NCBI GenBank assembly: GCA_028289405.1
Contig: JANQPP010000072.1
Span: 1 to 64,000, forward strand
Length of the DNA stretch: 64,000 nucleotides
Source of the DNA: Pirellulales bacterium
GTDB taxonomy: Bacteria; Planctomycetota; Planctomycetia; Pirellulales; JANQPP01
Reading direction: 5' to 3'
Position numbers and translations under genes: made by a program. The notes below the pieces were generated by a model, which was given only the letters and a program-made list of their open reading frames with translations, searched no databases and was not told the DNA's origin. Every line of letters starts with the position of its first letter. The first letter of the stretch is position 1. Of this stretch, positions 55,591 to 61,140 are shown piece by piece.

Positions 55591-57939
55591 GTGGCGCTGG
55601 TTAAAAACTTCTCACTCGTCGTTAGTTGGTTGGTGCTGACGGGGATCGCCCATGAGTGCTCCGCCATCGAGTTCCCGGAAGTGCTGCCGAAAACCGAGCG
55701 GCTGGAGATGGAAGGGGACATCGCCTCCCACATGGTGGCGGGGATCGACCGTTTTCTGCTACAGGAACTGGCCGCCTCGCGAGACCTCCACGAAGGGCTT
55801 GGGCCGCGAGATTTCTCTTCACCGGCTAGATATAGTGCTTCCCTCGCGCCGAGGCGTGAACGCCTGGCCCATATCTTGGGCGCGGTGGATGAACGTCTGC
55901 CTTTGCAGGCTCTAGAGTACGTGGCCACGACGGCGCAATCCGCACGGATAGGACGCGGCCGAGGGTACGAAATCTTCCAAGTACGTTGGCCAGTATTCAC
56001 CGACGTGTGGGGCGAAGGGCTACTGCTGGTGCCGGACCATCGCCCGCACTTGGCGAATGTGATTGCCATCCCCGATGCGGACCATACTCCGGAGATGCTC
56101 GTCGGCTTGGTGCCCGGCGTACCCCATAAATCTCAGTTCGCGCGGCATCTCGCCGAGCGAGGATGCCGTGTGGTCGTACCCTTGCTCATCGACCGGGCTC
56201 ACGAATTCTCCACGACCGTAGCCGGGACCCGGCCAACCGGCCAGCCGCATCGCGAATTCCTGTATCGCCCCGCCTTCGAGCTTGGCCGGCACATCATCGG
56301 CTATGAAGTCAACAAGATCCGCTCGCTGGTGGATTGGTTTACGCACGAAGCGAAGGGAGCTGATCCCACGATTGGCGTGTATGGCTATGGCGAAGGGGGA
56401 TTGCTGGCTCTGCATGTCGCCGCGCTCGATCCGCGCGTGGATGTGACCTGTTGCAGCGGCTATTTCGGCCCACGCGAGGGCGTGTGGCGGGAACCGATCT
56501 ACCGCAACGTTTTCGGACTGCTACAGGACTTCGGAGATGCGGAACTGGCCAGCATGGTTCCGCCTAGCAAACTTGTCGTGGAAGCCTGTGCGGCACCCAA
56601 CCACCCACAGAGCGCCACACCGGGCACCATCGACACTCCCTCCTTGGAAGATGTAACGGCCGAGTTTCACCGGGCTGTCTCGCTTTGTTCTGCCGCGCCG
56701 TGGGCTACCGATCACTTGCAATTGGTGGTCAGTGACGCAGGCCATGGGCCATTTGGCAGTGAAAAAACCCGCGATCTATTTCTAGAGCTGTTGCGAGACG
56801 ATGCTCCGACAGCCGACGACAGCACATCCACTTCGCAAACCAAACAGGAAAACCACTCCACCCCGCCGGAAGCCTTGGTTGTCTTGCCCTCTCCCCAAGA
56901 GCGCATGCGGCGGCAGGTGGGGCAGCTCGACCGGCATACGCAGCGGCTGCTGCACGAAGCCGAGTACACGCGGACCGAGTTCTGGGCAAAAACCGACCGA
57001 AGTTCGCTCGAACGTTGGCGGGAAACGACCGCACCCTACCGGGAATATTTTCGCGACGAGATCATTGGGCGTTTCGAGCGGGAATTGCTGCCGCCATGTA
57101 CGCGTACGCGAAAAGTCTACGATCAACCGAAATATGTGGGCTACGAAGTCGTGCTGGATGTGTTTCCCGACGTGATCGCCTACGGCATCTTGCTGTTGCC
57201 AAAAGACCTGCAACCGGGTGAAAGGCGGCCTGTCGTGGTGTGCCAACATGGGCTGGAAGGTCGGCCGCAAGACGTGGCGGACCCGGACCAGGACCATCCA
57301 GCCTACCATCGCTATGCTTGCCGGCTGGCGGAACGCGGTTTCATCACCTATGCCCCGCAGAATATCTACATCTTTCAAGATCGCTTCCGCACCTTGCAGC
57401 GGAAGGCCAACCCGCTGGGCAAGACGCTCTTCTCCATCATGGTGCCGCAGCACCGGCAGGCCACCGATTGGCTGGCGGGTCTCCCCTGGGTCGATCCGGA
57501 GCGGATCGCTTTTTACGGACTCTCCTACGGCGGCAAAACGGCGATGCGCGTGCCTCCCTTGGTCGACCGCTATTGTCTCTCGATCTGCTCGGCCGATTTC
57601 AATGAATGGATCTGGAAGAACGCCTCGACACGCAGCCCCTACAGCTACGTCAGTTCTGGCGAATACGAAATCTTCGAGTTCAATCTAGGCAACACGTTCA
57701 ACTACGCGGAAATGGCCGGGCTCATCGCGCCTCGCCCCTTCATGGTGGAACGCGGGCATCGCGACGGCGTAGCACCCGACCACCGCGTGGCCCAGGAATA
57801 CGCCAAAATTCGCCTGCTATATGCCGACTTGGGCATCCCGAAAAAAACCACGATCGAATTCTTCGACGGTCCCCACACGATCCACGGCGAAGGCACGTTC
57901 GACTTCCTGCATGAGCAACTGGACTGGCCAAAACCGTGA
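55591..57939 (+). CDS. Two-domain alpha/beta hydrolase (acetyl xylan esterase/dienelactone-hydrolase-like)
   Basis: N-terminal domain has GVYGYGEGGLLAL; C-terminal domain has VVVCQHGLEG and nucleophile elbow FYGLSYGGKTAMRVP. Signal peptide-like N-terminus; GTG start. Confidence 0.85.
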   Translation: MALVKNFSLVVSWLVLTGIAHECSAIEFPEVLPKTERLEMEGDIASHMVAGIDRFLLQELAASRDLHEGLGPRDFSSPARYSASLAPRRERLAHILGAVDERLPLQALEYVATTAQSARIGRGRGYEIFQVRWPVFTDVWGEGLLLVPDHRPHLANVIAIPDADHTPEMLVGLVPGVPHKSQFARHLAERGCRVVVPLLIDRAHEFSTTVAGTRPTGQPHREFLYRPAFELGRHIIGYEVNKIRSLVDWFTHEAKGADPTIGVYGYGEGGLLALHVAALDPRVDVTCCSGYFGPREGVWREPIYRNVFGLLQDFGDAELASMVPPSKLVVEACAAPNHPQSATPGTIDTPSLEDVTAEFHRAVSLCSAAPWATDHLQLVVSDAGHGPFGSEKTRDLFLELLRDDAPTADDSTSTSQTKQENHSTPPEALVVLPSPQERMRRQVGQLDRHTQRLLHEAEYTRTEFWAKTDRSSLERWRETTAPYREYFRDEIIGRFERELLPPCTRTRKVYDQPKYVGYEVVLDVFPDVIAYGILLLPKDLQPGERRPVVVCQHGLEGRPQDVADPDQDHPAYHRYACRLAERGFITYAPQNIYIFQDRFRTLQRKANPLGKTLFSIMVPQHRQATDWLAGLPWVDPERIAFYGLSYGGKTAMRVPPLVDRYCLSICSADFNEWIWKNASTRSPYSYVSSGEYEIFEFNLGNTFNYAEMAGLIAPRPFMVERGHRDGVAPDHRVAQEYAKIRLLYADLGIPKKTTIEFFDGPHTIHGEGTFDFLHEQLDWPKP

Positions 57940-58029: not shown

Positions 58030-58105
58030 ACCAGCGTAGCTTCAATCGACAGAACGCTGCATTTGTGATGCGGGGGTTGCCGGTTCGACTCCCACCGTTG
58101 GCACC
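58030..58105 (+). pseudogene. Degenerate tRNA-Thr(TGT)-like sequence (pseudo-tRNA)
   Basis: Folds by eye as a cloverleaf: acceptor CCAGCG/CGTTGG, T8 A9, anticodon arm CTGCA-TTTGTGA-TGCGG, T-loop G-TTCGACT-C, discriminator A then CCG. Mismatches in the D-stem, T-stem and first acceptor pair argue it is degenerate. Confidence 0.5.
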
Positions 58106-58450
58106 GTGGAGCATGATGTACTGGTTGTTCGTCATGCCGTTTTACTGGATCACGGAAGCATCGTGTTGGTTTCGAATTGATTCGTTGCCAATTCCCCCGA
58201 ATTGAAAACCAGGTCTTCCGGATGGGTAGAACGCCCCACATCACGATGCCCCTGGAGTCAATATGCCCACCATCACCTGGCCGGCGTCAGGGCTCCGATC
58301 CGTGCACTTATTTCTCCGCGTGTTTGCTTGGCCGGTCTTCAGCGCTGAGCGATGCCCCGACTCCCGCGTCAACCGCGAGAAGACGGCTTCACGACAAAGC
58401 GAATAGACGAGGGTCTTGTTGTGTCAGAATTGCGTGCATATGATTCGCTA

Positions 58451-58488
58451 TTGCATTGCATTGCATTGTATTGCATTGTATTGCATTG
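58451..58488. repeat. TTGCA/TTGTA pentanucleotide tandem repeat
   Basis: TTGCA TTGCA TTGCA TTGTA TTGCA TTGTA TTGCA TTG: seven full units plus a partial unit. Confidence 0.97.
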
Positions 58489-58518
58489 GCATTCTCGATC
58501 TCAAAGTGGAGGAACACC

Positions 58519-59010
58519 GTGACGACCAGCAAGATCCGAATAAAAATGGGGCAGATCGAGGTGGAATGCGAAGGGTCGGAACAGTTTCTCAAGAAAGAAT
58601 TGCCCGACTTGTTGGAATCGGTGACTCGGCTCTACGAGCAAAGCGGGGGCGGCATCGCAGCCGATGGCGGCAACGGCGGAGGAACTAACAACTCGTCGGG
58701 AGCGACGGGCAAGATTGTCGGAACAACTGCGACGCTTGCCGGAAAGCTAGGTGCCAAAACTGCGAAAGACTTGATCATCGCGGCGGCAGCCCAATTGACG
58801 CTCGTTGGAGGCAAGGCTGAGTTTTCTCGCCAGGAACTGCTTACCAGTGTCAAGTCAGCATCGGGATATTACAAAGAAAGTTACAGCAAGAACTTCACAA
58901 ATTACCTGAACGTGAGAGTGAAGGCTGGACAACTCGTTGAGCCGCGGAGCGGCCACTATGCGTTGAGCGCAAAAGAAAAGAAGGAATTGGAGACAACACT
59001 TGTTACCTAA
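58519..59010 (+). CDS. Hypothetical protein with winged-helix-like C-terminus (gene 1 of two-gene cassette)
   Basis: GGAGG ribosome-binding site upstream of GTG start VTTSKIRIKMGQIEVECEGSEQFLKKELPDLLESV; C-terminus EFSRQELLTSVKSASGYYKESYSKNFTNYLNVRVKAGQLVEPRSGHYALSAKEKKELE looks wHTH-like. Confidence 0.75.
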   Translation: MTTSKIRIKMGQIEVECEGSEQFLKKELPDLLESVTRLYEQSGGGIAADGGNGGGTNNSSGATGKIVGTTATLAGKLGAKTAKDLIIAAAAQLTLVGGKAEFSRQELLTSVKSASGYYKESYSKNFTNYLNVRVKAGQLVEPRSGHYALSAKEKKELETTLVT

Positions 59011-59728
59011 AGAATCTCTAAAAGATCTTTTGTCTCAGAAATCGTTAAGCAACAGCGAGAAATTGCTGATTTGTTTGGCGGTTGATACAGGCGGACCAAA
59101 AGCCGTGAAGGAAATCCGTGAAATGGCCGTCGCGAGTGGATTGCGCGCCGCCAAGAAATGGAATGTTTCGGCACAATTGGGGCGGGAAACTGAGTTGGCC
59201 GTTCGCGCAGTAGGCGGGTGGGAGTTGACCGCAAAGGGTAGCCATTTCGTCGCGAAAGTTGCCGGCCCTCTGATGAACTCACCGATCCTCAAAGTTGCAT
59301 CATCGCTACGAGTTCATCTTGTCAAGATCACGAGTGCGGACTCGCAGTCATTTATTGAGGAGGCGATTGGTTGTTTCGAGTCGCGGCAATATCGTGCAGC
59401 CGTCGTGCTTTCGTGGGTCGGCGCAGTTTCCGTGCTCCAAAGCCACGTCGTGAATCACTGTCTTGCGAGTTTCAATGCTGAAGCGCAAAAGCGCTACCCA
59501 AAGTGGAAAACAGCCAGAACCACAGACGACCTTGGGCTAATCAAAGAAGACACCTTCTTGGACATCCTGCAGGCGATCTCCGTAATCGGAAAAAACGTAA
59601 AGCAAGAGTTGAAGAAGGGATTGACCCTGCGGAACGGATGCGGCCACCCAAACTCTCTTAAGATCGCCGAGCACAAAGCGTCTTCACACATTGAGGACTT
59701 GATGCTGAACGTCTTTGCAGTTTTCTAG
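59000..59728 (+). CDS. HEPN-like protein (gene 2 of two-gene cassette)
   Basis: TTG start preceded by GGAG and overlapping the upstream stop. C-terminal helical region with R-x4-H motif LTLRNGCGHPNSLKIAEHKASSHIEDLMLNVF, typical of HEPN-fold proteins. Confidence 0.65.
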   Translation: MLPKESLKDLLSQKSLSNSEKLLICLAVDTGGPKAVKEIREMAVASGLRAAKKWNVSAQLGRETELAVRAVGGWELTAKGSHFVAKVAGPLMNSPILKVASSLRVHLVKITSADSQSFIEEAIGCFESRQYRAAVVLSWVGAVSVLQSHVVNHCLASFNAEAQKRYPKWKTARTTDDLGLIKEDTFLDILQAISVIGKNVKQELKKGLTLRNGCGHPNSLKIAEHKASSHIEDLMLNVFAVF

Positions 59729-60019: not shown

Positions 60020-60057
60020 AGCCCCGAGATCCGCGAAAGGTTCTCGGGGCTTTTTTT
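60020..60057 (+). terminator. Strong Rho-independent terminator in the intergenic region immediately upstream of the DAHP synthase gene
   Basis: AGCCCCGAGA-tccgcgaaaggt-TCTCGGGGCT followed by a run of T (ctttttttatt). Confidence 0.85.
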
Positions 60058-60084: not shown

Positions 60085-61140
60085 GTGATCGTCGTCATGA
60101 AACCCAACGCCACGCAAGAAGAAGTTGACCACATCGTGGACCGTGTTAACGGCCACGGACTCAAACCCCATGTCATCAAGGGAACCGAGCGGACCGTGAT
60201 CGCCGCGGTCGGAGACGATCGGAAACTGGACGTCGCCGCGCTGGAAACCGCGCCGGGTGTCTCGCGGGTCGTGCCCGTATTGGCTCCCTACAAACGGGCT
60301 AGCCGGGAAGTGCAAAACGAACCGACGGTCGTGAGCCGGGGTAGTCTCACGTTGGGCGGCAACCACCTTGGCGTGATCGCGGGGCCCTGCTCGGTCGAAA
60401 GCGAAGAGCAGATCATGCAATCCGCCCGGGCTGTGAAAGCGGCTGGCGGCACGGCGCTGCGTGGTGGCGCGTTCAAACCCCGCACGAGCCCTTACAGTTT
60501 CCAGGGCCTCAAAGAGGAAGGTTTGAAACTCCTGGCCGTGGCGCGGGAAGAGACCGGTTTGGCCGTGGTGACGGAAGTCATGGCGAGCGAGGATATTGGG
60601 TTGGTGAGCGAATACGCCGACGTGCTCCAAATCGGGGCCCGCAACATGCAAAACTACCGGCTACTCGCCGCTGTGGGAGAAGCGGAACGGCCCGTGTTGC
60701 TGAAACGTGGGCCGAGCGCGACGCTGGATGAACTTTTGCTGGCCGCCGAATACATTTTGGACGCCGGCAATAACGATGTGATCCTTTGCGAGCGGGGGAT
60801 CCGCACCTTCGAATCCCACACGCGGTTCACCTTGCCGCTGGCTTCAGTCACCTATCTGCGGGCCAAGACGCACCTGCCGATCGTGGTCGATCCCAGCCAT
60901 GGGACAGGGCATGCCTGGATGGTGCCCGACATGGCCGCGGCCAGCGTGGCGATCGGCGCCGATGGCTTGATCATCGAAATGCACCCCGATCCGGAAAATG
61001 CCCTCAGTGATGGCTATCAGTCGCTGGACTTCGCCCAGTTCGCCACCACCATGGAACGCTGTCGCGTGATCGCCGAGGCGATTGGCAAGGAGATGCCAAG
61101 GGTTGCATCGTCAAAAGAAAAAGCTCCCGTGGCGACGTAG
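60085..61140 (+). CDS. aroF: 3-deoxy-7-phosphoheptulonate synthase (DAHP synthase, AroA_I-beta/type with N-terminal FeeS/ACT-like domain)
   Basis: [45 protein letters not shown]-terminal domain; [58 protein letters not shown]. Confidence 0.95.

Follow-up and report, generated by a model that had tools for sequence, protein, structure and literature searches.

A candidate two-gene conflict module of a winged-helix partner and a predicted HEPN ribonuclease in a Pirellulales bacterium

HEPN ribonucleases are among the commonest effectors of bacterial immunity and are mostly found singly. PD-T7-3, an anti-phage protein of E. coli (Vassallo et al. 2022, PMC9519451), is named among the HEPN-bearing systems (PMC10952713) and resembles the DUF4145 protein BxaP in structure (PMC10799925). 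It consists of one protein, with its HEPN domain at the N terminus ahead of a long C-terminal region (profile of 432 positions), and has no separate partner. Dandelion (PDB entries 9wx2 and 9wxf), of which no description was found in the open-access literature, is likewise one chain, of 460 aa, whose HEPN is N-terminal. Two-gene arrangements, namely, MNT-HEPN and ParA-HEPN pairs, as well as HEPN-winged helix fusions in giant proteins, appear in the available part of the 2013 HEPN survey (PMC3710099), and that part describes no pair of the type presented here. Type IX retrons (retron-Kva2) encode a HEPN effector and a winged-helix protein within the same operon; they depend on a reverse transcriptase and msDNA, and their HEPN is without the R-x4-H motif (PMC13405049).

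The locus compared with these systems lies in the window, the whole 64,000-nucleotide stretch of DNA that was analyzed (contig JANQPP010000072.1 of a Pirellulales bacterium). Its two genes and their ribosome-binding sites are as follows.

58519..59010, + strand: gene 1, partner protein, 163 aa, GTG start (from the sequence and the relative in locus L054)
59000..59728, + strand: gene 2, winged helix plus HEPN protein, 242 aa, TTG start
58508..58512, + strand: GGAGG, ribosome-binding site of gene 1
58989..58992, + strand: GGAG, ribosome-binding site of gene 2, within gene 1

Gene 1 reads from GTG at 58519 to TAA at 59010 and gene 2 from TTG at 59000 to TAG at 59728. The first-pass annotation had claimed two co-directional genes sharing 11 nt, with the TTG start of the second and its GGAG site within the first, and exactly this overlap was recovered at the same coordinates, with a purine-rich ribosome site ahead of each gene. 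Both are real genes, as indicated by the pair in L054 (Nitrospirota), which repeats the 11-nt overlap and the TTG start, and by the differences between gene 2 and its relative in L006, which concentrate at the third codon position (28/16/66% at positions 1/2/3) and thus reflect selection at the protein level. Gene 2 is a single copy in the host genome. A short ATTGC/ATTGT pentamer tandem repeat (58449-58488) lies immediately upstream of the ribosome site of gene 1.

In comparison to PD-T7-3 and Dandelion, gene 2 is shorter, carries its HEPN domain last, behind a winged helix, and has a separate partner gene. The order of partner gene first and HEPN RNase second is that of MNT-HEPN (MntA-HepT), but the MNT-HEPN partner is a nucleotidyltransferase, whereas gene 1 matched no nucleotidyltransferase family in Pfam and was modelled as a hairpin plus winged helix. 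Neither a reverse transcriptase nor an msr-msd RNA was found at the operon (contig search, Rfam), and identity with a retron was dropped because no reverse transcriptase lies nearby. Identity with AbiE was rejected, too, as the winged helix only weakly matched AbiEi (0.0054) and the neighbor is a HEPN protein, not an AbiEii nucleotidyltransferase. DUF4145 HEPN proteins, the group that includes BxaP, were found paired with gene-1-like partners in the size and order of gene 2 (L058 and L012). No match over the cut-off was obtained for gene 1 or gene 2 in Pfam and PADLOC, nor for gene 2 and its relatives in NCBIfam, and no description of the pair was found among open-access papers or family models, so that the label "undescribed" given to the cassette at first holds for the libraries searched.

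The domains of both proteins were delimited by AlphaFold2 models and profile comparisons.

58525..58641, + strand: N-terminal domain of gene 1, residues 3-41, beta-hairpin plus helix (KIRIKMGQIEVECEGSEQFLKKELP...), AlphaFold2, low to medium confidence
58642..58722, + strand: Gly/Ser-rich linker of gene 1, residues 42-68, predicted disordered (pLDDT <50 at 41-67)
58723..59004, + strand: C-terminal winged helix of gene 1, residues 69-162 (model pLDDT mostly about 80; hhalign)
59000..59275, + strand: N-terminal winged helix of gene 2, residues 1-92 (model pLDDT about 55-70; homology to that of gene 1)
59282..59716, + strand: HEPN domain of gene 2, residues 95-239 (pLDDT mostly 80-95; PD-T7-3 and Dandelion-HEPN matches)
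59630..59647, + strand: HEPN catalytic motif RNGCGH, residues 211-216 of 242 (R211, N212, and H216), from conservation

Gene 2 was aligned with 11 relatives from whole genomes, genome contigs, and plasmids, 20-67% identical to it, and a narrower alignment, used as a pattern on genome contigs, gave four loci. R211, N212, and H216 were invariant in all 12 sequences, as were E121, C125, R132, W139, and E183. The PADLOC model PD-T7-3 matched 8 of the 12 sequences over its N-terminal part (best E 2.7e-6; gene 2 of the window alone only weakly, E 0.014), which marks the two HEPN domains as homologous, and the unnamed phage family phrog_27609 matched 11 of them (best E 1e-12). Against PDB, the family profile found the HEPN domain of the two Dandelion entries (9wx2, E 6e-5; 9wxf, 5e-4). 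The AlphaFold2 model, built from 4 sequences (pLDDT 75.5), folds residues 95-239 into a confident helical bundle, and its closest Foldseek matches, none of them significant, included HepT/HEPN toxins and winged helices. No sequence match to the Pfam HEPN family (PF05168) or to DUF4145 was obtained. The HEPN nature of gene 2 and its R-x4-6-H motif, both read from the letters alone in the first-pass annotation, were thus borne out by the profile links, the model, and the alignment, and gene 2 is very probably a catalytically competent HEPN RNase. In L060 (7904-9355), a 483-aa protein has a HEPN of this family at its N terminus; no partner was noticed nearby, and PADLOC gave no match.

The first-pass annotation had also placed a winged-helix-like segment at the end of gene 1, which the model predicts, but it had overlooked the N-terminal winged helix of gene 2 itself. 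By profile comparison the two winged helices are homologous: hhalign placed that of gene 1 on residues 1-88 of gene 2 (probability 95%, E 2.8e-8), compared to a lowest E of 0.074 among 40 column-shuffled controls, and a whole-genome search with the gene 2 profile independently matched partner genes in two further genomes. Foldseek with the gene 1 model returned many winged helices among its matches, suggestive and none significant. Local matches to the N-terminal domain of gene 1 were seen in L054, L008, L058, and L059.

A partner gene adjoins gene 2 in all 12 judgeable loci of the 13 in the HEPN tree (Planctomycetota, Pseudomonadota, and Nitrospirota; L010, at a contig edge, was excluded), lying upstream in the same direction in 11 of them and divergently in L052, in agreement with the early claim of a two-gene cassette. 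A second pair in L012, whose HEPN gene carries a stop, is one further judgeable locus. The closest complete counterpart, in L054, was 39% identical to gene 1 over its whole length and 50% identical to gene 2. Gene 2 is rare, being present in 6 of 394 planctomycete genomes including the host, in 3 of 399 Pseudomonadota genomes and in 3 of 148 Nitrospirota genomes at full length, with one stop-broken copy in addition in the latter. HEPN genes were broken in two relatives, L011 at the 3' end and L012 by an internal stop, as expected if the gene is accessory or costly. A tblastn search of phage records gave no match. Among plasmids, gene 2 had only distant matches, with no close full-length relative, and gene 1 had none.

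The partners vary at the N terminus. The beta-hairpin type was found in the window, L054, and L008, a shorter, related-looking type in L002, L053, L055, and one of the two partners of L011, and helical-hairpin types in L006, L009, L011, L013, L014, and L052; two or three partners occur in L011 and L058. The profiles of partner groups A11 (9e-8), A12 (8e-10), and A14 (3e-9) aligned with the winged helix of gene 1. The profile of the L006/L011/L058-type partners did not align with it, and the winged helix of these partners is our own reading. BLASTP found no match between gene 1 and the Ochrobactrum partner, the kinship being visible by profiles only. In the HEPN tree, the window falls inside a clade of five (support 98/99) with mixed partner types, and for each of the two labels, beta-hairpin and helical-hairpin, the well-supported branches require three changes or more, a count that is approximate as the N termini were typed by eye. 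The N-terminal domain of the partner is repeatedly exchanged along the HEPN tree while the winged helix persists.

The two genes very likely act together, and a function in conflict is probable for the pair. On balance we favor a two-gene conflict module, serving anti-phage defense or as a toxin-antitoxin (TA) system, in which the partner would control the HEPN effector; a role in anti-phage defense in particular is held with similarly moderate confidence. This reading draws on the invariant active-site residues, the HEPN homology, the conserved pairing, the two homologous winged helices, and the defense genes near some relatives. Against it count the housekeeping surroundings of the cassette and of most relatives the lack of a clear defense island, the weak direct match of gene 2 to PD-T7-3, and the failure to find a close full-length relative in phage records or plasmids. 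In the mechanism that we infer, from RNase activity and complex formation through the direction of control, the trigger, and the RNA target to the defense outcome, gene 2 would be the effector, a HEPN endoribonuclease with an intact R-N-x3-H motif fused behind a winged helix, and gene 1 the partner, in which a flexible linker joins a small exchangeable N-terminal domain to a second winged helix, homologous to the first. Translated first from the coupled message, the partner would in the resting cell bind gene 2, most likely winged helix to winged helix, and keep the HEPN dimer off; it would restrain, or else license, the RNase. A trigger such as infection may act on the N-terminal domain of the partner or on a nucleic acid to which the winged helices bind, and would release or rearrange the complex so that the HEPN cuts host or phage RNA and growth or infection stops.

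Its main rival, a plain type II TA system, is unlikely, though clearly ahead of the other alternatives. There a labile gene 1 product would neutralize the HEPN toxin and its winged helix would repress its own promoter, the outcome being addiction, not defense. The cassette has the small size, the partner-first order, and the overlapping start (11 nt) of such pairs, its partner is small with a DNA-binding-type fold, MNT-HEPN and ParA-HEPN pairs share the gene order in the part of the survey available (Anantharaman et al. 2013, PMC3710099), a HepT toxin was among the structure matches of gene 2, without significance, and the effector gene is broken in L011 and L012. Against it stand the partner N terminus that varies between close HEPN relatives although the winged helix stays, the two or three partners in L011 and L058, and the apparently solitary gene-1-like genes of many planctomycetes, which exceed the needs of a dedicated antitoxin. 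Antitoxin swapping is known, and hence type II TA is still compatible with exchanged N termini.

An improbable alternative is a pair of transcription regulators, in which the HEPN would be a non-catalytic ligand-binding or dimerization domain, as in MtlR. Two winged helices in one operon would suit it, and HEPN domains without RNase activity exist according to the part of the survey consulted (PMC3710099); yet a non-catalytic role does not demand the invariance of R-N-x3-H in 12 divergent sequences, and the HEPN relative PD-T7-3 is a defense protein.

The surroundings of the cassette bear on the remaining alternatives. The pair sits among housekeeping genes, outside any defense island, between a hydrolase (55591-57939) and a DAHP synthase (60085-61140); a T2SSE-type ATPase lies further upstream. 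The first-pass annotation had put a pseudo-tRNA and a terminator on its two sides, and both were located. The former is a degenerate tRNA-Thr (58030-58103) with an Rfam score just under the threshold (28.8 bits, the gathering score being 29), missed by ARAGORN, 86% identical to the intact tRNA-Thr(CGT) at G000:C189:40892, and with its own anticodon region reading TGT. It is possibly an old integration scar, or a divergent tRNA. G+C was 50-53% in the cassette compared to about 57-63% around it, and this, together with the possible tRNA scar, is compatible with horizontal arrival. About 300 nt past gene 2 lies the following feature.

60021..60057, + strand: probable intrinsic terminator (GCCCCGAGA...TCTCGGGGC plus T run), from the sequence

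The hairpin was seen by eye and missed by the terminator scan because its loop is long; it may serve the cassette or belong to the DAHP synthase leader.

The 580 nt ahead of gene 1 hold no evident gene and could house an element of a type IX retron-like ribonucleoprotein, in which an unrecognized nucleic acid would hold the HEPN and winged-helix proteins together, as type IX retrons combine such proteins (PMC13405049). This explanation is very improbable, as no reverse transcriptase was found on the contig (the five of the genome are all on other contigs), Rfam gave no RNA family upstream of gene 1 apart from the degenerate tRNA, and the retron HEPN lacks the R-x4-H motif (PMC13405049). That the pair is the inactive leftover of a formerly functional module, for which the degenerate tRNA, the lower G+C, and the broken copies elsewhere could be cited, is extremely improbable given two open frames, a complete active site, intact starts and ribosome sites, and the codon-position signature of protein-level selection against L006.

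Most neighborhoods of the relatives showed no clear defense island, too. Among the exceptions, the relative in L061 adjoins HsdM, HsdS, HsdR, and GmrSD, that in the plasmid locus L002 lies near VapC and an antitoxin, and that in L012 has nearby a protein with hits to HEPN as well as nucleotidyltransferase models, and the second pair beside it.

The gene 1 profile detected relatives in 28 of 326 genomes of planctomycetes and in 5 of 148 of Nitrospirota, some of them with other neighbors. Besides the DUF4145-HEPN proteins that they adjoin in L058 and L012, gene-1-like genes stand next to an unnamed HEPN-like protein of 250 aa with an RNNRxVGH motif (L059:7985-9201 and L095:1501-2683), 55% identical between two phyla. 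It would be a third HEPN-like type, assigned by its motif only, and its C-terminal region we read as a winged helix. Weaker profile matches of the helical-hairpin kind were found in two Nitrospirota genomes (L097:1297-3275 and L098:1-1968), where the helical-hairpin plus winged-helix gene lies ahead of genes for a ParA-type ATPase and for a RelA/SpoT-type protein (RelA_SpoT match slightly below the Pfam cut-off), possibly a further conflict operon.

These neighborhoods allow a larger, tentative and rather doubtful reading as an "adaptor" architecture, in which the common winged helix would dock partner and effector while sensors (beta-hairpin or helical-hairpin) and effectors (three or more HEPN families, and perhaps the ParA plus RelA/SpoT-type operons) are plugged in and exchanged. 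Effector-associated domains, reportedly described by Aravind and colleagues, are comparable in logic.

In the pair, a HEPN homologous to that of a tested defense protein is combined with a separate regulator in a two-gene unit spread over three phyla, and the docking-type domain stays constant while the front ends are exchanged. If the proposed reading is true, the pair would be a compact system in which to study the rewiring of a single effector to respond to different triggers, and would help in searching for a class of modules overlooked by defense finders.

In many deep planctomycetes, the gene-1-like gene is apparently solitary, without an adjacent HEPN gene, and is perhaps vertically inherited with a non-conflict role. 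Apparently solitary beta-hairpin plus winged-helix genes were noted in L072, L077, L078, L088, and L089, some beside a hemN-like gene. In L096 (630-2025), the protein encoded after a gene-1-like gene has 281 aa and matched no family; a TIR-like domain suspected beside the gene-1-like gene was unsupported on checking and is not claimed. One planctomycete carries a four-gene cluster of three partner-type genes and a DUF4145-HEPN gene (L058:5877-8277), which adjoins a 1874-aa protein resembling a protein kinase.
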